Source: Paludibacter jiangxiensis
GTDB lineage: Bacteria > Bacteroidota > Bacteroidia > Bacteroidales > Paludibacteraceae
Reading direction: 5' to 3'
NCBI GenBank assembly: GCA_945897785.1
Contig: CAMDGD010000004.1
Coordinates: forward strand, 1 to 64,000
DNA: 64,000 nt
The notes beneath the pieces are model-generated. The model was not told the DNA's origin, made no database searches, and saw nothing but the letters and a program-made list of their open reading frames with translations. The position numbers and the translations under genes were made by a program. The stretch's first letter is position 1, and every line of letters starts with the position of its first letter. Shown in pieces: positions 54,777 to 64,000 of the stretch.

Positions 54777-56225
54777 ATGGCCGACGAAAAAGATAAAATA
54801 ATAAACGAGGTTACGCAGGGAGAATACAAATATGGTTTTACCAGCGACATACCTACCGATTATATCCCTAAAGGATTAAATGAAGACATCATCCGGCTTA
54901 TTTCTTCGAAAAAAAACGAGCCTGAATGGCTATTGGAAATAAGATTAAAGGCTTTCCGTCATTGGCTTACCTTAGAAATGCCCCACTGGGCACACCTGAA
55001 TATCCCCGAAATTGACTACCAAAGCATATATTACTATGCCTCGCCCACAAAAAAAGAGGGACCGAAGAGCTTAGACGAGGTGGATCCGGAATTAGTAAAA
55101 ACATTCGACAAACTTGGCATCCCTTTGCACGAGCAAAAAATGCTTTCGGGAATGGCTGTTGATGCCGTATTAGATAGTGTCTCTGTAAAAACAACCTTTA
55201 AAGAACAGTTGGCAGAATTGGGCATAATTTTTTGTTCATTTAGCGATGCGGTTAAAGACTATCCGGAACTGGTTCAAAAATATATGGGCTCGGTTGTAAA
55301 CTATACCGACAATTTTTTTGCGGCCTTAAACTCGGCTGTTTTTAGCGACGGTTCCTTTGTATATATACCCAAAGGAGTACGTTGCCCCATGGAGTTATCT
55401 ACCTATTTTCGTATTAATGCGATAAATACAGGACAATTTGAACGAACTCTAATAATTGCGGATGAAGATTCGTATGTTAGCTATCTAGAGGGTTGTACAG
55501 CGCCTATGCGTGATGAAAATCAACTACATGCAGCCATTGTCGAAATTCTTTTACACGAACGTGCAGAAGTGAAATATTCTACCGTGCAAAACTGGTATCC
55601 CGGTAATAAAGAAGGAAAAGGCGGTATTTACAATTTTGTAACCAAAAGAGCCTTGTGTAAAGGCGACTATTCAAAAATTTCCTGGACTCAAGTTGAAACG
55701 GGTTCGGCCATAACTTGGAAATACCCTAGTTGCATTTTGCGAGGCAATAACTCTATTGGCGAGTTTTACTCCGTTGCAGTAACCAATAACTACCAACAAG
55801 CAGATACAGGAACAAAAATGTATCATATAGGAAAAAATACCAGTAGCCACATTGTGTCAAAAGGGATTTCTGCCGGACATAGTCAGAATAGTTACCGCGG
55901 CTTAGTTAAAGTAGTAGGTAAAGCAGAGAATGCACGCAACTTTTCGCAATGCGATAGCTTACTTTTAGGCGACAAATGCGGAGCGCATACTTTTCCTTAC
56001 ATCGATGTACATAACCAAACAGCTATTGTAGAACACGAAGCAACAACCTCAAAAATCAGCGAAGATCAGGTTTTCTATTGCAACCAACGAGGCATTGCTA
56101 CTGAAGATGCCATCGGCCTAATTGTAAATGGCTATGCTAAAGAGGTGCTTAATAAATTGCCAATGGAATTTGCCGTAGAGGCTCAAAAGCTGTTGCAAAT
56201 TACTTTAGAAGGTAGCGTGGGTTAA
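54777..56225 (+). CDS. sufB: Fe-S cluster assembly scaffold SufB
   Basis: 482 residues. Family features are [41 protein letters not shown], the C-terminal [21 protein letters not shown] and conserved cysteines (CTAP and [21 protein letters not shown]). SufB builds clusters in the SufBC2D complex in the cytosol. It is the first gene of sufBCDSE. Confidence 0.96.
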
Positions 56226-56297
56226 CACTCATCCTTTTATATAAGTATAAAAAAACGATTTTAGTATCCCTCCCTTATGGGAAAATAGGAAGACAAT

Positions 56298-57050
56298 ATG
56301 TTAGAAATTAAAAACTTACACGCCAATATCAACGGCAAAGAAATTTTAAAAGGAATTAATCTTTTGGTTAAACCCGGAGAAGTTCACGCTATAATGGGAC
56401 CAAATGGTTCGGGTAAAAGTACGCTTGCTTCCGTATTAACCGGAAACCCTGCCTTCGAAGTTACCGAAGGCGAAGTAAGCTTTTACGGTAAAAACCTGCT
56501 GGAACTATTGCCAGAAGAACGGGCTTGCGAAGGTGTCTTTTTAAGTTTCCAATACCCGGTAGAAATTCCCGGTGTTAGTATGGTTAACTTTATGCGTACA
56601 GCTGTAAACCAACAACGAAAATATAGAGGCCTGGAGCCGATGTCAGCTTCTGATTTTTTAAAATTGATGCGCGAAAAAAAGGAATATGTTGAATTAGATA
56701 ACAAACTAGCCAACCGCTCAGTTAACGAAGGATTCTCGGGCGGGGAGAAAAAACGAAACGAAATATTCCAGATGGCTATGCTCGAACCCCGCTTGTCAAT
56801 TTTAGACGAGACTGACTCGGGCTTGGATATTGATGCCTTGCGTATTGTTGCTAATGGCGTGAATGCCTTAAAGTCAGCCGAAAATTCAACCCTTGTTATT
56901 ACTCATTACCAACGATTACTGGATTATATTGTACCCGATTTTGTGCATGTTTTATATAATGGACAAATAGTGAAATCGGCAGGAAAAGAACTGGCTCTAG
57001 AACTGGAAGAAAAAGGATACGACTGGATTAAGAAAGAAGTTGGAGAATAA
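56298..57050 (+). CDS. sufC: Fe-S cluster assembly ATPase SufC
   Basis: 250 residues, an ABC-type ATPase: Walker A GPNGSGKSTLASVLTG, signature GFSGGEKKRNEIFQMAML and Walker B LSILDETDSGLDIDAL, in which the family's D-E-x-D-S-G-L-D is complete. It drives conformational change of SufB/SufD. The gap from sufB is 72 nt, without an evident internal promoter. Confidence 0.96.
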   Translation: MLEIKNLHANINGKEILKGINLLVKPGEVHAIMGPNGSGKSTLASVLTGNPAFEVTEGEVSFYGKNLLELLPEERACEGVFLSFQYPVEIPGVSMVNFMRTAVNQQRKYRGLEPMSASDFLKLMREKKEYVELDNKLANRSVNEGFSGGEKKRNEIFQMAMLEPRLSILDETDSGLDIDALRIVANGVNALKSAENSTLVITHYQRLLDYIVPDFVHVLYNGQIVKSAGKELALELEEKGYDWIKKEVGE

Positions 57051-57099
57051 AACTAGCCTGATAACAATTATTTCTATTCGAAAATTAGCACTAGTATAC

Positions 57100-58443
57100 A
57101 TGAATATCGAACAACCATATATCGATTTATACAATCAGCACAAGAAAGCCATCGAAAAGAACTCTTCCTTAGTGTTCAATGGTGCCCGTGAAAAAGCTTT
57201 TATCCATTTTAAAAAATTAGGATTTCCTACGGATAAAATGGAACCCTACCTTTACACGAACCTACGCAAGGCTTTTGAACCTGATTACGGACTAAATATC
57301 AATGCACTGGAAATACCCATAAATCCTTATGAAGTTTTTCATTGTAGCGTTCCGGGCTTAAGTGCACATTTGTATTTTGTTGTTAATGATCAATTTTACT
57401 CCAACCTCACCCAAAAATCCGACTTGCCCAAAGGGGTTTTAATAGGTAGTTTAAAAGATTATGCTAAAACGCATCCGGAACTGGTAGAAGAATACTACGC
57501 CAAAATTGCACGCACAAACCAAGATGGAACAGTAGCCTTTAACACAGCTTTTGCCGAAGACGGATTCTTTATGTATGTTCCCAAAGGGGTAATTATCGAA
57601 AAACCCATACAATTAATTAATGTTATGCGTGCCGATGTTGATTTATTGGCAAACAGTCGCAATTTAATTATTATAGAAGAGGGTGCACAAGCTAAAGTAC
57701 TTCTTTGCGAACACACGATGGATAAGGTGACTTTTTTATGCAACCGCGTAACCGAAGTATTTGTTGCAAAAAACGCCATATACGAACATTACAAGCTTGA
57801 AAATACACACAACAAAATGACCCATATTGGCTCGTTATTTATTGAACAACAAGCTAACTCTAGCGTTTTGGTAAACGAAATTACCTTACATAACGGTTTA
57901 ACCCGAAACAACACGCACATTGCTCTTAATGGCGAATATGCAGAAACAACCATTTGTGGTATGGCCATAGGCGATAAAACACAGCATATTGATAACTATT
58001 CCCTTATAGAGCATAACAACGCAAACTGCAAAAGCACCGAGCTATTTAAATATGTATTGGATGATACGGCAAGAGGTGTTTTTTCGGGAAAAATATTTGT
58101 AGCTAAAGACGCCCAAAAAACGGAGGCATTTCAGACAAATAAAAATATATGTATGACCAAAGAAGCGCGCATGCACACCAAACCACAACTCGAAATATAT
58201 GCCGACGATGTAAAATGCAGTCATGGAGCTACTGTTGGACAATTAGACGAGAACGCACTTTTTTACCTTCGTTCTCGGGGCATTGCCGAACCGGAAGCAC
58301 GAATGTTACTTATGTTTGCATTTGTTGATGATGTTATAGGTAAAATAACCGTACCGGCTTTGCAAGACAATATTCGTATGTTGGTTGAAAAACGATTCCG
58401 TGGAGAATTATCCAAATGTATTGGATGTATTAACTGTAGTTAA
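57100..58443 (+). CDS. sufD: Fe-S cluster assembly protein SufD
   Basis: 447 residues from the ATG at 57100 (MNIEQPYIDLYNQHKKAIEK); the track start is a TTG overlapping sufC. The SufBD core is seen in MYVPKGVIIEKPIQLINVM, LIIIEEGAQAKVLLCEHTMD and CSHGATVGQLDENALFYLRSRGI. The C-terminus ends RGELSKCIGCINCS, a cysteine-rich tail of the CxxCxxC type that E. coli SufD lacks. It completes the SufBC2D scaffold. Confidence 0.93.
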   Translation: MNIEQPYIDLYNQHKKAIEKNSSLVFNGAREKAFIHFKKLGFPTDKMEPYLYTNLRKAFEPDYGLNINALEIPINPYEVFHCSVPGLSAHLYFVVNDQFYSNLTQKSDLPKGVLIGSLKDYAKTHPELVEEYYAKIARTNQDGTVAFNTAFAEDGFFMYVPKGVIIEKPIQLINVMRADVDLLANSRNLIIIEEGAQAKVLLCEHTMDKVTFLCNRVTEVFVAKNAIYEHYKLENTHNKMTHIGSLFIEQQANSSVLVNEITLHNGLTRNNTHIALNGEYAETTICGMAIGDKTQHIDNYSLIEHNNANCKSTELFKYVLDDTARGVFSGKIFVAKDAQKTEAFQTNKNICMTKEARMHTKPQLEIYADDVKCSHGATVGQLDENALFYLRSRGIAEPEARMLLMFAFVDDVIGKITVPALQDNIRMLVEKRFRGELSKCIGCINCS

Positions 58444-58490
58444 ATAATAAACCAATGGTTGAAAGGTAACTTTATTGGAAAATTAAAAAA

Positions 58491-59708
58491 ATGTTAGACT
58501 TACAAAAAATAAGAGCCGATTTTCCTATACTGTCCGAAACAGTATACGGCAAGCCCTTGGTATATTTTGATAATGCTGCCACCACACAAAAGCCGCGCTG
58601 TGTAGTACAGAAAATGGAAGAAGGCTATTATAAACGAAATGCAAATATCCATCGGGGAGTACATTTTTTAAGTCAGGAAGCCACCGAAGCTCACGAACAA
58701 GCACGCGAAACAATACGTGCATTTATAGGAGCAAAAAGCAGCAACGAAATTGTATTTACACGAGGCACTACCGAAGCCATCAACTTGGTGGCGAGTTCTT
58801 TTGGCGATTTACTACAAGCAGGTGACGAAATACTCCTTACCGCCATGGAGCACCACTCCAACATTGTTCCTTGGCAGTTGCTCCGTACACGAAAAGGCAT
58901 CGAAATAAAAGTTATTCCCTTTACCAACAGAGGAGAATTGCTACTAGACGAATTGGCAAAGAGTATCAATCCAAAAACAAAACTAATTGCCTGCACACAT
59001 ATTTCCAATGCCTTAGGCACTATTAATCCGATAAACGAAATCATCAAAATAGCCCATGCCGCTAATATTCCGGTATTGGTTGATGGGGCACAATCTGTTC
59101 CACACCTCAAAATTGATATGCAAGCCCTAGATGCGGATTTCTTTGTTTTTTCTGCGCATAAAATTTACGGCCCTACAGGAATTGGCGTTTTATACGGCAA
59201 AGAGAAATGGTTAGATAAGATGCCTCCCTACCAAGGTGGAGGCGAAATGATTGCTAAAGTTAGTTTTGAAAACACCACCTTTGCCGCACTCCCTTTTAAA
59301 TTTGAAGCCGGAACACCTGATTTTATAGGCTCTACTGCTTTTGCAGAAGCCTTACGATATATTAGTGCTATTGGCATAGAAAACATTGCAGCACACGAAA
59401 ATAAATTGCTTTTGTATGCGACAGAGAAATTGCGCAAATTAGAAAATATTCGTTTTATTGGCGAAGCAGAACACAAAAGCGGATTAATATCTTTTTTAGT
59501 TGGGAGCATTCACCCCTACGATGTTGGCTCAATACTTGACAAATTAGGTATTGCTGTGCGTACCGGACACCATTGTGCTCAACCCGTAATGGAGGTTTTT
59601 TCTATTGAAGGAACCGTTCGTGCTTCTTTTGGATTATACAATACTACACAAGAAATTGATGTTTTTATTGACGGAGTAGAACGGGTAAAAAAAATGTTTA
59701 AACAGTAA
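58491..59708 (+). CDS. sufS: Cysteine desulfurase SufS
   Basis: 405 residues, group II desulfurase. Phosphate-loop TRGTTEAINLVA, AMEHHSNIVPW, PLP lysine in FSAHKIYGPTGIGVLYG and the active-site cysteine in VRTGHHCAQPVM are intact. It takes sulfur from cysteine and passes it to SufE, encoded 16 nt downstream. Confidence 0.95.
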   Translation: MLDLQKIRADFPILSETVYGKPLVYFDNAATTQKPRCVVQKMEEGYYKRNANIHRGVHFLSQEATEAHEQARETIRAFIGAKSSNEIVFTRGTTEAINLVASSFGDLLQAGDEILLTAMEHHSNIVPWQLLRTRKGIEIKVIPFTNRGELLLDELAKSINPKTKLIACTHISNALGTINPINEIIKIAHAANIPVLVDGAQSVPHLKIDMQALDADFFVFSAHKIYGPTGIGVLYGKEKWLDKMPPYQGGGEMIAKVSFENTTFAALPFKFEAGTPDFIGSTAFAEALRYISAIGIENIAAHENKLLLYATEKLRKLENIRFIGEAEHKSGLISFLVGSIHPYDVGSILDKLGIAVRTGHHCAQPVMEVFSIEGTVRASFGLYNTTQEIDVFIDGVERVKKMFKQ

Positions 59709-59724
59709 AACGGCAACGAAAACT

Positions 59725-60144
59725 ATGACCATAAACGAAAAACAAGACGCAATAATTGCCGAATTTGAATTTTTAGAAGATTGGCTGGATAAATACCAAC
59801 AGATTATTGATAAAGGAATGTCTTCGGCAGGAGTTAGTGCTAAAGAGAAAACACCCCAAAATTTAATTGAAGGATGCCAAAGTAAAGTATGGATAGTTGC
59901 CGAAATGCATGAGGGAAAAGTTGTTTTTCGTGCCGAAAGCAATACCGATATTGCCGGGGGTATTGCTGCAATGCTGGTAGATGTACTTTCGGGTCATACA
60001 CCGGAAGAAATAATACAAACAGAGCTTTACTTTTTAGAAAAAATTGGCCTTAAGGAACATCTCTCTCCTACCCGAGCCAACGGCATGCTTGCCATGATAA
60101 AGCAACTAAAACTTTTTGCCTTAGCCTTTCAGACAAAACAATAA
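59725..60144 (+). CDS. sufE: Sulfur acceptor protein SufE
   Basis: 139 residues. The acceptor cysteine is in LIEGCQSKVWIVAEM, and the rest follows the SufE fold (NTDIAGGIAAMLVDVLSGHTPEEI, SPTRANGMLAMIKQLK). It receives persulfide sulfur from SufS and gives it to SufB. Last gene of the operon, followed by a terminator. Confidence 0.94.
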   Translation: MTINEKQDAIIAEFEFLEDWLDKYQQIIDKGMSSAGVSAKEKTPQNLIEGCQSKVWIVAEMHEGKVVFRAESNTDIAGGIAAMLVDVLSGHTPEEIIQTELYFLEKIGLKEHLSPTRANGMLAMIKQLKLFALAFQTKQ

Positions 60145-60321: not shown

Positions 60322-60984
60322 TCAAATCTCAATTAAGTTATTCTTTATTCCAAACTTAATCATATCAATGGTAGTTTTTAAATCGAGTCGTTGCATGATG
60401 TGGTTTTTGTGCGACTCAACGGTACGGACACTTATAAAAAGCTTATCGGCAATTTCTTTATTAGAATAATTATTTCCCCACAATTGCAGAATTTCTATCT
60501 GCCTCGCACTTAACCCATGTATTGTTGGCTCATTAAGCTTTTCGCGCGAGCTCATTTTTTTTATGTATTTATTAAGCAACAGATGCGCAATTGACTTACT
60601 GTAGTAATCGTGACCGTTGCGCAGGGTGTAAATGGCCTCAGAGAAATCGGATATATTCGCTTCCTTATCTAAAAAACCTTTGGCTCCAGCCTTAATTGTT
60701 TTCAGAATAATTTCTTCGCTATTCGTATGCGACACCACTAAAATGCGTGCTCTGGGGTAGCTTAAATTTAACTGAGTTATTAAATTTAATATCGCGGTAT
60801 TTAATGTATGAATATTTATAATCAACACATTAATACCTTTGCCTTTAAGCTCTTCGATAAGTTGCAATTTTTCCGATTGCATTATCGGCAAAGCCTCAAA
60901 ATCTTCGTTGCTCGATAAAAAGGCACAAAGGCTTTGTTGAATAATTTTATGATCGTCGTAAATACCAACTGTAATTGTACTCAT
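60322..60984 (-). CDS. LuxR/NarL-type regulator with degenerate receiver
   Basis: 220 residues. A receiver-like domain (1-125) keeps the acidic pair D10-D11, S85 and K107, but the phospho-acceptor position is asparagine N57 (LIINIHTLN where the family has LLDxxMP); the nucleotides read AAT. A LuxR-type HTH follows (GLSARQIEILQLWGNNYSNKEIADKLFISVRTVESHKNHI). So it is probably a DNA-binding regulator that works without Asp phosphorylation. It starts 3 nt after the large REC/ATP-grasp gene and should be cotranscribed with it. Confidence 0.87.
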   Translation of the reverse strand: MSTITVGIYDDHKIIQQSLCAFLSSNEDFEALPIMQSEKLQLIEELKGKGINVLIINIHTLNTAILNLITQLNLSYPRARILVVSHTNSEEIILKTIKAGAKGFLDKEANISDFSEAIYTLRNGHDYYSKSIAHLLLNKYIKKMSSREKLNEPTIHGLSARQIEILQLWGNNYSNKEIADKLFISVRTVESHKNHIMQRLDLKTTIDMIKFGIKNNLIEI

Positions 60985-60987
60985 TTA

Positions 60988-63900
60988 TTATCCATTTAAT
61001 AGAATTGCTGCTTTGCGGAGTTTGCCATTCATCAAAACCTTTAACGGTTTTTTAAATTGAATATGCTTAAAATATTCCGTTTTATTTTTCACTTTTTGCT
61101 GGGCGATAATATCCCAATTTACATAATCAGTATAAGATGAATCTTGTACCGACAAGTACCCAATATTCATGGAAGTAACATTATGAAAAAAATGTGAACC
61201 TAAGGATGAGTCGAGCGGAAAATTAGGCATGCTAATTTCTACAATTACTTTTGCATTAGATATTTGCGACCATGAAACAGGAATTCCCAAAAACTGATCG
61301 CGGGTACCCCATCTGCCGGGACCAATTAAAACATATTGTCGGCCTTCTTTTATCATTACATTGTTTAGAAATTCAATTTCCTTCATCATATCCAAGGTTT
61401 TCATTCTATCAAATTTCGCTGTATCTACAAAAATGATATCTGTTATATTGGTTATCTCTCCATTCCCTAGACTCGACTCGGTATATAACACTGTGTCTGA
61501 TTTAGCTACTTCCGAGATTAAGATATCATCCCGTTGTTGCGAGGTAACAATAGGTTTTATTTGCAATAAATAAAAGGAAGGTAAGCCATTTACGGTTTTG
61601 GTTAAATCGACCGCCCATTCTATTTCTATTGGAGAGCCCAGTGCATCTTTGGCAATATTTAACAGCTCGTCAATCAATTCGGCCAATGGTATATAGTTAT
61701 ATTTCAATATATTGGCAAAATTAATAATGCGTGGCCCCATGCTACCCAAGCCTGAATTAATCCGATCATTTTCCGGGTTATACACCGACACACAATGGTT
61801 TATAGTACCATGTTTTTCTGCCGTACTAATATCCAATAAGGTTAACGATGCATCCTCTCCTTCATTTAGAAAATCTTGTTGTTTTCGGCTTAAGTCAATA
61901 GCATAAAACTCTACCTGCGTACTTTTAAGCATGTCTTTTGGTGTGTACATGGCAATAGTTGGGTATTTTGGCGAGAAACGATACGACCGTCGTCCACCCA
62001 CCACATAATACCCCAACCCCATTGCCGCTACCGCAAAACCTTCTTCCGGTTTCATGTGAGCCACCGGATAATAATTATACGATTGTGCCGTACCGCTTAT
62101 ATGCGGATAATAATAATTATCGTGCTTGCTGCCTACCAGCTCCTGTAAAATTACGGCCATACGCTCATCTTCCAGTTTATGGTTGATAGCGTTAAAATAA
62201 GTACGAGAATCTTCGGAATATACCGAAGCATAAACTAATTTGATAGCAGTAATAAGCTGCACCAAGTCTTGTGCTTTATCTTCGTTATTATTTGGAATTA
62301 CAAAAGTATCAAAAACCCCCGCAAAAGGATGGCTCATAGAGTCTTCAGAAAGGCTAGAAGAACGAACCGCAATAGGGTTATCAATTTGAGCAATAAACTG
62401 TTTTAGTCTTTGCACCAAAGCATCTGACAAGCTCGCATTTACAAACATTTCTTTAATCTCTTTGTAAGAGAAGTTGGTATCAAAAACATACTTAGATAGT
62501 TTGTTATTCTCCATAAAAAGCTCAAACTCATCGGTGCCAATGATACCTGTTATAGGCGTACGAATATTGATTTCTTGTAAAAATTTAGAGAAATTTAGGT
62601 TGTAAATAAAGGTATTAATAAAAGCCAGGCCCCTTCCTTTTCCGCCTAACGAACCGGATGCTAGGGTAACAATATTTTTCTCGTCAATAGTAGTAACTTC
62701 GTCAATACTTAAAATTTTACCCTTTCGCTTTTCTTCTTTGTATGCTACAATAGAAGCTAAAAAGTACTGACGAAATTCTTCTACCGTTTCAAAATCAGTA
62801 ACACTTACAGGATTAATCGATTTAGCCAATTGAATTTCACCCCTAGACATCAACCACAAGGAAAATTGATTTTTTATGGCATGCAAATACAACGATTCTT
62901 TAGGTATTGTTGCTAAAATGCTTCTAAACTCTTTTAGCGTTTTTGCAACAGCCAAGGCTTTTCCTGCTTTATCGCGAAAAACAAAATCGCCAAAACCAAG
63001 TTGAGTAGTTAAAAACGATTTTAAATCGATTAACAACCGCTCCGAGTTTTTATTGATAAAGCTTACCTCCAGTTTTTTTGCAAGCTCTTCATTAGCAGCA
63101 TCAGACGATTGCAGTATAATGGGTAAGGTAAGCGTTTGTTTTTTAATGTATTTAATAAACCTAACACCGGCCGTTTTATCAAGTTCTCCGTTACGGTCAA
63201 ATTCCACATCAGAGATTACACAAAGCAAAAAATCCTTGTATTTCTCAAAAACGAACATGGCATCTTCGTAGTTTCTTGCATGCAAAATTTTTGGTCGAGA
63301 GCGCATTTTACTAATCTTATCTATCTCGTTCTTTTCAACCTCAGGCAATAATTGTTGAATTTGTCCGAATACAATCGAATACAAATTTTGCAAATACTTG
63401 GAATAATAAAAAGCGGAGTCTTCGATAAGCAATATTACGCGCACAAGTCCAATCTTGGTATCGTTTTCAACATTTACGCTATCCTCGATAGATTTTACTA
63501 TGGCAAATAGAATTTGAGAATTGCCATTCCATACAAAAATTTTATCGACAGAAAACACCGAAGGCACCAACTCCTCGAAATATTTTATGTTGTTTTTCTG
63601 GTTCAACAGCAAATAAACAGGCAGGTCTTTTTGTTTCTTTTTTATCTCTTGACTCAGTAAGATGGGCGAATCATTATCGAGTCCAACCATCAAAATAACC
63701 AAATCGAAATGGGTTGTTTTTAACAAATCCAAGGCTTCTTTGGCAGATGTAACTCCGGTGATACGAGGCAACGAAAATAAGCTGTATTGGTATATTTCTC
63801 CCATAAACTGTTCAAAAAAACCATCCTCGTTTTCTAGAATAAAAGCATCGTATAAGGTAGCTACAAAAAGGATGTTTTTTACTTTAAACTTCATCATATC

Positions 63901-64000
63901 CAAGTAAATATACTTGTCAAGTATTTGCTTGTTAAAATAAAGCTGAAGCGGTTGTTTGTCTTTTGTAAGCGATTTTCGGAAATCATCTACCTTGTGTTTA
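60988..64000 (-). CDS. Receiver-receiver-PEP-synthase-like ATP-grasp fusion (5' end outside window)
   Basis: The frame is open to the window edge, 32 codons beyond the TTG chosen by the track, so about 1003 residues are visible and the start is outside. In order (track numbering): a receiver-like domain to about 140 whose Asp position is Met (FDLVILMVGLDN); a second receiver-like domain about 150-310 with acidic residues, ISDVEF, SSD and NKN (Asp kept); then a PPDK/PpsA-type ATP-grasp domain from about 415 with SLGGKGRGLAFINTF, IAVRSSSLSEDS, FAGVFDTFV and IEWAVDLT. The phosphohistidine swivel and the PEP barrel of PpsA are absent; a C-terminal domain with GPGRWGTRDQFLG follows. The enzyme reaction is unknown. 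Confidence 0.8.
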   Translation of the reverse strand, partial: KHKVDDFRKSLTKDKQPLQLYFNKQILDKYIYLDMMKFKVKNILFVATLYDAFILENEDGFFEQFMGEIYQYSLFSLPRITGVTSAKEALDLLKTTHFDLVILMVGLDNDSPILLSQEIKKKQKDLPVYLLLNQKNNIKYFEELVPSVFSVDKIFVWNGNSQILFAIVKSIEDSVNVENDTKIGLVRVILLIEDSAFYYSKYLQNLYSIVFGQIQQLLPEVEKNEIDKISKMRSRPKILHARNYEDAMFVFEKYKDFLLCVISDVEFDRNGELDKTAGVRFIKYIKKQTLTLPIILQSSDAANEELAKKLEVSFINKNSERLLIDLKSFLTTQLGFGDFVFRDKAGKALAVAKTLKEFRSILATIPKESLYLHAIKNQFSLWLMSRGEIQLAKSINPVSVTDFETVEEFRQYFLASIVAYKEEKRKGKILSIDEVTTIDEKNIVTLASGSLGGKGRGLAFINTFIYNLNFSKFLQEINIRTPITGIIGTDEFELFMENNKLSKYVFDTNFSYKEIKEMFVNASLSDALVQRLKQFIAQIDNPIAVRSSSLSEDSMSHPFAGVFDTFVIPNNNEDKAQDLVQLITAIKLVYASVYSEDSRTYFNAINHKLEDERMAVILQELVGSKHDNYYYPHISGTAQSYNYYPVAHMKPEEGFAVAAMGLGYYVVGGRRSYRFSPKYPTIAMYTPKDMLKSTQVEFYAIDLSRKQQDFLNEGEDASLTLLDISTAEKHGTINHCVSVYNPENDRINSGLGSMGPRIINFANILKYNYIPLAELIDELLNIAKDALGSPIEIEWAVDLTKTVNGLPSFYLLQIKPIVTSQQRDDILISEVAKSDTVLYTESSLGNGEITNITDIIFVDTAKFDRMKTLDMMKEIEFLNNVMIKEGRQYVLIGPGRWGTRDQFLGIPVSWSQISNAKVIVEISMPNFPLDSSLGSHFFHNVTSMNIGYLSVQDSSYTDYVNWDIIAQQKVKNKTEYFKHIQFKKPLKVLMNGKLRKAAILLNG

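Follow-up and report, generated by a model that had tools for sequence, protein, structure and literature searches.

RESULTS

A receiver-dikinase fusion gene adjoins a LuxR-type gene in Paludibacter jiangxiensis

The DNA analyzed here, referred to as the window, is a 64,000-nucleotide stretch of the P. jiangxiensis genome (GenBank assembly GCA_945897785.1, contig CAMDGD010000004.1, positions 1 to 64,000). Two genes on the reverse strand occupy its right-hand end (Table 1). The larger encodes a fusion protein with two receiver (REC) domains and a PPDK_N ATP-grasp domain, and the smaller encodes a regulator of the LuxR/NarL type. An initial annotation of the window had placed two receiver-like domains and the ATP-grasp domain in a single open reading frame (ORF), which a Pfam match to PPDK_N confirmed (PF01326; E = 4e-38 to 8e-38), and had located the LuxR-type gene 3 nt downstream on the same strand, where we also found it. 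Such close spacing of the two genes implies one transcript. A suf gene cluster on the opposite strand (window positions 54777 to 60144; sufB, an ABC-ATPase gene, sufD-like and cysteine desulfurase-like genes, and sufE) ends beside this module.

The extent of the fusion had to be revised. It had been read as REC-REC-ATP-grasp, a core that stands, but the window edge cuts the gene, which continues beyond it. A 971-amino-acid (aa) protein starting from a TTG codon and ending at the edge was rejected because the ORF continues to a complete length of 1398 aa. The part encoded beyond the window comprises ~430 aa and consists of GAF-type sensor domains in tandem. A DUF5752-like segment and a conserved C-terminal domain had also been overlooked. 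From the N terminus, the domains are arranged in the order tandem GAF-type, REC1, REC2, DUF5752-like, PPDK_N, and conserved C-terminal domain.

Table 1 Coordinates of the fusion gene, its encoded domains, and the LuxR-type gene in the window
Feature	Position	Strand	Details
LuxR/NarL-type regulator gene	60322..60984	-	220 aa; Response_reg E = 4e-9, GerE E = 1e-15
LuxR protein layout			Receiver with Asn57 replacing the phospho-Asp, then C-terminal HTH
3-nt gap, fusion stop codon to LuxR start codon	60985..60987	-	
Fusion gene, in-window portion	60988..64000	-	Start outside the window, at contig position 65184
REC1	63520..63882	-	Residues about 435-555; Met499 in the Asp position; REC-REC fold match to PleD
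REC2	62998..63441	-	Residues about 582-729; E588/D589, D659, S693, K712 invariant
DUF5752-like segment	62725..62949	-	Residues 746-820; E = 8e-6, bit score exceeds the Pfam cutoff
PPDK_N ATP-grasp domain	61528..62652	-	Residues 845-1219; fold match to PPDK 1kbl
C-terminal domain, no Pfam family	60991..61503	-	Residues 1228-1398; GPGRWG and SxG[ST]HFFxN motifs

The fusion combines sensor domains, one intact receiver, and a dikinase-like head

The N-terminal ~430 residues of the fusion gave no Pfam match. An AlphaFold2 model of this region (pLDDT 80) contained tandem GAF-like units linked by long helices, and its best matches in the PDB were the GAF domains of phytochromes and phosphodiesterases. 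From residue 430 onward, we aligned 35 homologues and modeled the fusion over the same part (pLDDT 82.5); PleD and PPDK 1kbl were the PDB fold matches of its REC-REC and ATP-grasp parts, respectively. The alignment upheld the claim that an Asp is kept only in the second receiver. In REC1, Met499 stands where the phospho-Asp is expected in 35/35 homologues, and the domain fails the signature of a phosphorylatable receiver, which is complete in REC2: E588/D589, D659, S693, and K712 are all retained in every one of the 35. Tandem receivers of which one is degenerate are also found in PleD-type proteins, but in the fusion the degenerate receiver comes first and the output is an ATP-grasp head rather than a GGDEF domain. 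No histidine kinase was found among the ORFs neighboring the window locus; HATPase_c genes are present on other contigs.

Five residues of the PPDK_N head, K849, R941, E1187, E1189, and Q1208, are invariant in 35/35 homologues. We take these to be equivalent to PPDK Lys22, Arg92, Asp321 (here Glu), Glu323, and Gln335, respectively, from motif comparison and the known PPDK numbering. A MAFFT alignment with the true PPDK of the same genome supported the Lys and Glu/Gln motifs and misaligned the Arg motif, whose assignment comes from the motif itself. Glu replaces the catalytic Asp321 of PPDK in every family member, a substitution by which the activity of the head could be altered or lost.

Consistent with the initial annotation, neither the swivelling phospho-His domain (PF00391) nor the PEP/pyruvate TIM barrel (PEP-utilizers_C) had a match in the 1398-aa protein, in which ~170 residues remain after PPDK_N. 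The fusion thus shares with PPDK and PEP synthase an ATP-grasp nucleotide-binding domain with corresponding Lys, Arg, Glu, and Gln residues but differs from them in lacking both of these domains, in having Glu for Asp321, in its N-terminal GAF and receiver domains, and in its C-terminal domain. Identity as a PEP synthase or PPDK was rejected because the two defining domains are absent and a true PPDK is encoded elsewhere in the genome. This PPDK, on contig C14, carries the sole PF00391 match in the genome; no free-standing swivelling-His domain was found there, and a separate partner protein supplying one was rejected for that reason. The C-terminal domain of the fusion contains a His, His1331, that is invariant across the homologues. 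A domain with this His motif also occurs in very divergent PPDK_N proteins of glutamate dehydrogenase (Gdh) gene clusters (L078 and L079) and at locus L085.

The family is widespread in the order and has two main forms

We surveyed the family within the Bacteroidota. A member is present in 103 of the 119 genomes of the order, so the architecture is kept beyond what chance would allow. The members form two well-separated clades: a long form in which GAF-like units number from one to three or more, and a short form of ~990 aa without GAF. L044, a member that lacks GAF units, branches at the base of the long clade. In the sister species of the Paludibacter genome, the module is entirely absent although the nadE-dnaG-cdf neighborhood is conserved, indicating either loss there or gain in the window's genome. 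One metagenome-assembled genome has its long form as two ORFs, of 785 and 618 aa (L063:5693-9906), probably because of a frameshift or a sequencing error.

More distant Bacteroidota encode related proteins of about 1060 aa with a GAF-like segment, PPDK_N, and the C-terminal His motif (L078:4805-7987, reverse strand; L079:7646-10837, forward strand). The L078 protein has a C-terminal nucleotidyltransferase domain by Pfam. Both lie in Gdh clusters, next to PPDK_N-only proteins of 555 to 580 aa, and a relative of similar size lies beside a Gdh gene at L093. These GAF-PPDK_N-nucleotidyltransferase proteins resemble the fusion in their ATP-grasp head, His motif, GAF-like N terminus, and Gdh neighbor but have no REC domains and end in a nucleotidyltransferase; we found no description of them in the open-access papers searched.

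Fusion genes are linked to glutamate dehydrogenase genes by paralogue

The widespread genomic partner of the fusion family is Gdh, in a paralogue-specific manner, rather than LuxR. Among the 119 genomes of the order, a Gdh gene lies within 8 kb of 33/55 long forms (~0.5 expected) and of 25/83 short forms (~0.7 expected), an excess of some forty- to seventyfold over a simple genome-size estimate that ignores phylogenetic relatedness and contig breaks. Most short forms and 22/55 long forms have no Gdh gene within 8 kb, although fragmented assemblies will have concealed some cases. The Gdh directly adjacent to a long form was of the GdhB type in 8/8 cases and that directly adjacent to a short form in the Bacteroidales was of the GdhA type in 15/15, in a set of typed long and short forms that includes several close Carboxylicivirga relatives.

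We next predicted that GdhB would be the type carried by single-Gdh genomes that have the long form alone, and all seven of them carry it (7/7). The window's genome is among them: its only detected Gdh is 76% identical to GdhB versus 62% to GdhA, a typing made by tblastn identity, since the row for this genome in the Gdh tree (L101) represents a topoisomerase ORF and was disregarded. It is unlinked, on a different contig from the fusion. Single-Gdh genomes with only the short form carry GdhA in five of six cases, and the sixth, ambiguous by identity, is type A in the tree. Copy number follows the same pattern, with two Gdh genes in 40/44 genomes that have both fusion forms versus 14/50 with one form (Fisher P = 3e-10, a value that ignores relatedness).

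Distant classes of the phylum also show linkage to Gdh (L078, L080, L083, and L084), with several Gdh-fusion pairs per locus. There, short forms no longer pair exclusively with GdhA but also adjoin GdhB-type and more distant Gdh genes. At L080, a PAS histidine kinase and a canonical LuxR response regulator are encoded between two Gdh/short-fusion pairs (L080:8322-10397). At L086, the gene order is fusion, LuxR, gdhB. Some long forms lie near genes for NuoE/NuoF-like subunits, a molybdopterin/Fe-S oxidoreductase, or 2-oxoacid:ferredoxin oxidoreductase (L039:97-2434, L043:1295-3073, L040:670-4362, and L054:3484-6350), neighbors that hint at a redox linkage of the long forms.

Pairing with LuxR is lineage specific

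The receiver of the LuxR protein lacks its Asp, as had been noted from the sequence, with Asn57 at the phosphosite. Since it retains an effector domain, the protein falls within the definition of aspartate-less receivers (PMC4395418). The published survey of this class puts receivers without the Asp at about 4% of the total, with Asn at that position in 16% of them (PMC4395418). Among the fusion-linked LuxR homologues, the phosphosite is Asn in 7/9 and Asp in 2/9; given the rarity of Asn among receivers, the shared residue is a lineage trait. The aspartate-less receiver regulator RitR likewise has Asn at the phosphosite (PMC4395418), but the LuxR partner differs from RitR-like regulators in its NarL/LuxR-type output and its fixed genomic pairing with the fusion.

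Of the eight best LuxR matches in the 119 genomes, seven adjoin a long-form fusion (G000, G146, G054, G145, G040, G151, and G070), and none of the remaining 65 matches lies beside a fusion. Two further linked pairs are found in G018 and G049. The eighth best match, in G088, has its long form elsewhere; adjacency across a contig break was rejected there, as no LuxR frame lies in the last 460 bases after the fusion and the LuxR contig continues for about 3 kb. Co-directional fusion-LuxR order is kept at L034, L035, L036, L086, and L087, and the co-directional pairs form a single long-form clade with 100% SH-aLRT support, which includes the unlinked G088. Divergent LuxR genes lie upstream of the fusion at L039, L088, and L089. 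Because the best LuxR homologues adjoin long forms and the co-directional cases make up one clade, the pairing is real, co-inherited, and lineage specific.

It is not general, however. LuxR adjoins the fusion in just 7/55 long-form genomes of the survey, and beside short forms no LuxR gene was found except for the distant canonical insertion, with its histidine kinase, at L080. LuxR as a universal partner was accordingly rejected. Co-occurrence of the pair in relatives, proposed initially as a check, holds for one long-form lineage and not for most long forms. A LuxR relative also occurs in G081, a genome without the fusion; it has a normal phospho-Asp, and its gene is immediately upstream of one of the GdhB type (L102:296-2690), suggesting that this LuxR group may control gdhB independently.

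DISCUSSION

We propose, with a probability of roughly 55%, that the fusion acts as a soluble sensor and regulator of Gdh, here of the GdhB type, with a dikinase-like, ATP-using head. The proposal draws on domain architecture, invariant residues, and the Gdh link in relatives, all of which are established at the level of sequence. Weighing against it are the separate contigs of Gdh and fusion in the window's genome, the absence of the module from its sister species, the members with no Gdh within 8 kb, the Glu at the Asp321 position of every member, and the lack of a nearby histidine kinase that could phosphorylate REC2. In such a protein, the GAF domains would bind a small molecule, REC2 would accept a phosphoryl group, and REC1 may serve as a dimerization or adaptor domain. 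The PPDK-type head, with its catalytic residues kept, would use or sense ATP. Without a swivelling-His domain, the fusion is not a dikinase that forms PEP; the C-terminal domain with His1331 probably takes the place of that domain, as either a phosphate acceptor or a surface that acts on the target. The predicted turnover of ATP may involve phosphotransfer to His1331, the putative acceptor, or to a residue of the target. Gdh is the most likely target, through predicted action on the enzyme itself or on its expression from the gdh promoter; the genomic linkage fits both protein-level control and a shared regulon and does not separate them. In one lineage, which includes the window's genome, the aspartate-less LuxR protein would have been added as a transcriptional arm. 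Its predicted binding to the fusion is more likely to control it than phosphotransfer, because the acceptor Asp is missing.

That last point bears on the initial annotation, which suggested a signalling or metabolic-sensing enzyme outside the standard histidine kinase route, with phosphoryl groups or nucleotide state possibly passing directly between the partners. Our analysis did not identify the ATP-grasp head as a known enzyme of unrelated function. A signalling-like system with an output other than a histidine kinase remains our reading, but LuxR is not its core, and direct phosphotransfer from the fusion to LuxR is unlikely with Asn at the acceptor position in 7/9 homologues. A two-gene transcriptional switch, in which the fusion would hand its phosphoryl or nucleotide state straight to LuxR and gene expression would be the main output, is correspondingly improbable. 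It would account well for the 3-nt spacing, for the best LuxR homologues adjoining long forms, and for the co-directional pair in one fully supported clade, but not for the Asn in most of the partners, for the many fusions with no LuxR neighbor, or for the unlinked pair in G088.

Gdh would also be the target if the PPDK_N head were a pseudo-enzyme that binds ATP or AMP as an energy gauge, transfers no phosphate, and acts through reversible protein-protein contact. We consider this doubtful. Although the missing swivelling-His domain, the Glu in place of Asp321 throughout the family, and the heavily regulatory architecture all fit such a sensor, the invariance of the catalytic Lys, Arg, Glu, and Gln positions in 35 divergent homologues suggests chemistry, as does retention of the C-terminal His motif even in very divergent members. 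If chemistry does occur, it might be purely metabolic, with PPDK_N and the C-terminal module forming a ligase or kinase of glutamate or 2-oxoglutarate metabolism that the GAF and REC domains only tune. The Gdh linkage, the proximity of some loci to genes for 2-oxoacid:ferredoxin oxidoreductase or NADH-linked Fe-S oxidoreductase, and the existence in the phylum of Gdh-linked PPDK_N proteins without REC (L079 and L093) are in keeping with such an enzyme, but receiver/GAF fusions and partnering with LuxR fit regulation better than plain catalysis, and we think a metabolic role of this kind quite improbable.

The sensor-regulator reading can be extended, speculatively, to a new signalling class in which GAF and REC sensing would act on a dikinase-type ATP-grasp head with a C-terminal His acceptor and exert covalent, paralogue-specific control of Gdh across the Bacteroidota. 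In this tentative scheme, phosphotransfer output might come from the ATP-grasp head, in the place that a histidine kinase or a Ser/Thr kinase would otherwise occupy.

There are precedents for dedicated Gdh control, exerted by a signalling protein in the case of GarA in actinobacteria and by N-terminal sensor domains in the case of large GDHs. The system described here differs from GarA in having no FHA domain and no Ser/Thr kinase, the putative regulator being a separate GAF-REC-REC-ATP-grasp protein. Its single domains are already known, and the family is known only through domain annotation in the domain libraries used. In the open-access papers searched, we found no description of the family, of its Gdh link, or of a dedicated Gdh controller in Bacteroidota.

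Gdh is a main junction of carbon and nitrogen metabolism, and the pairing of the family with Gdh suggests a so far undescribed system that controls nitrogen metabolism. If this is correct, a dikinase ATP-grasp domain would have been recruited for signalling without its phospho-His carrier, and a regulator family that tracks Gdh by copy and type would make the regulation of Gdh in these anaerobes directly testable.
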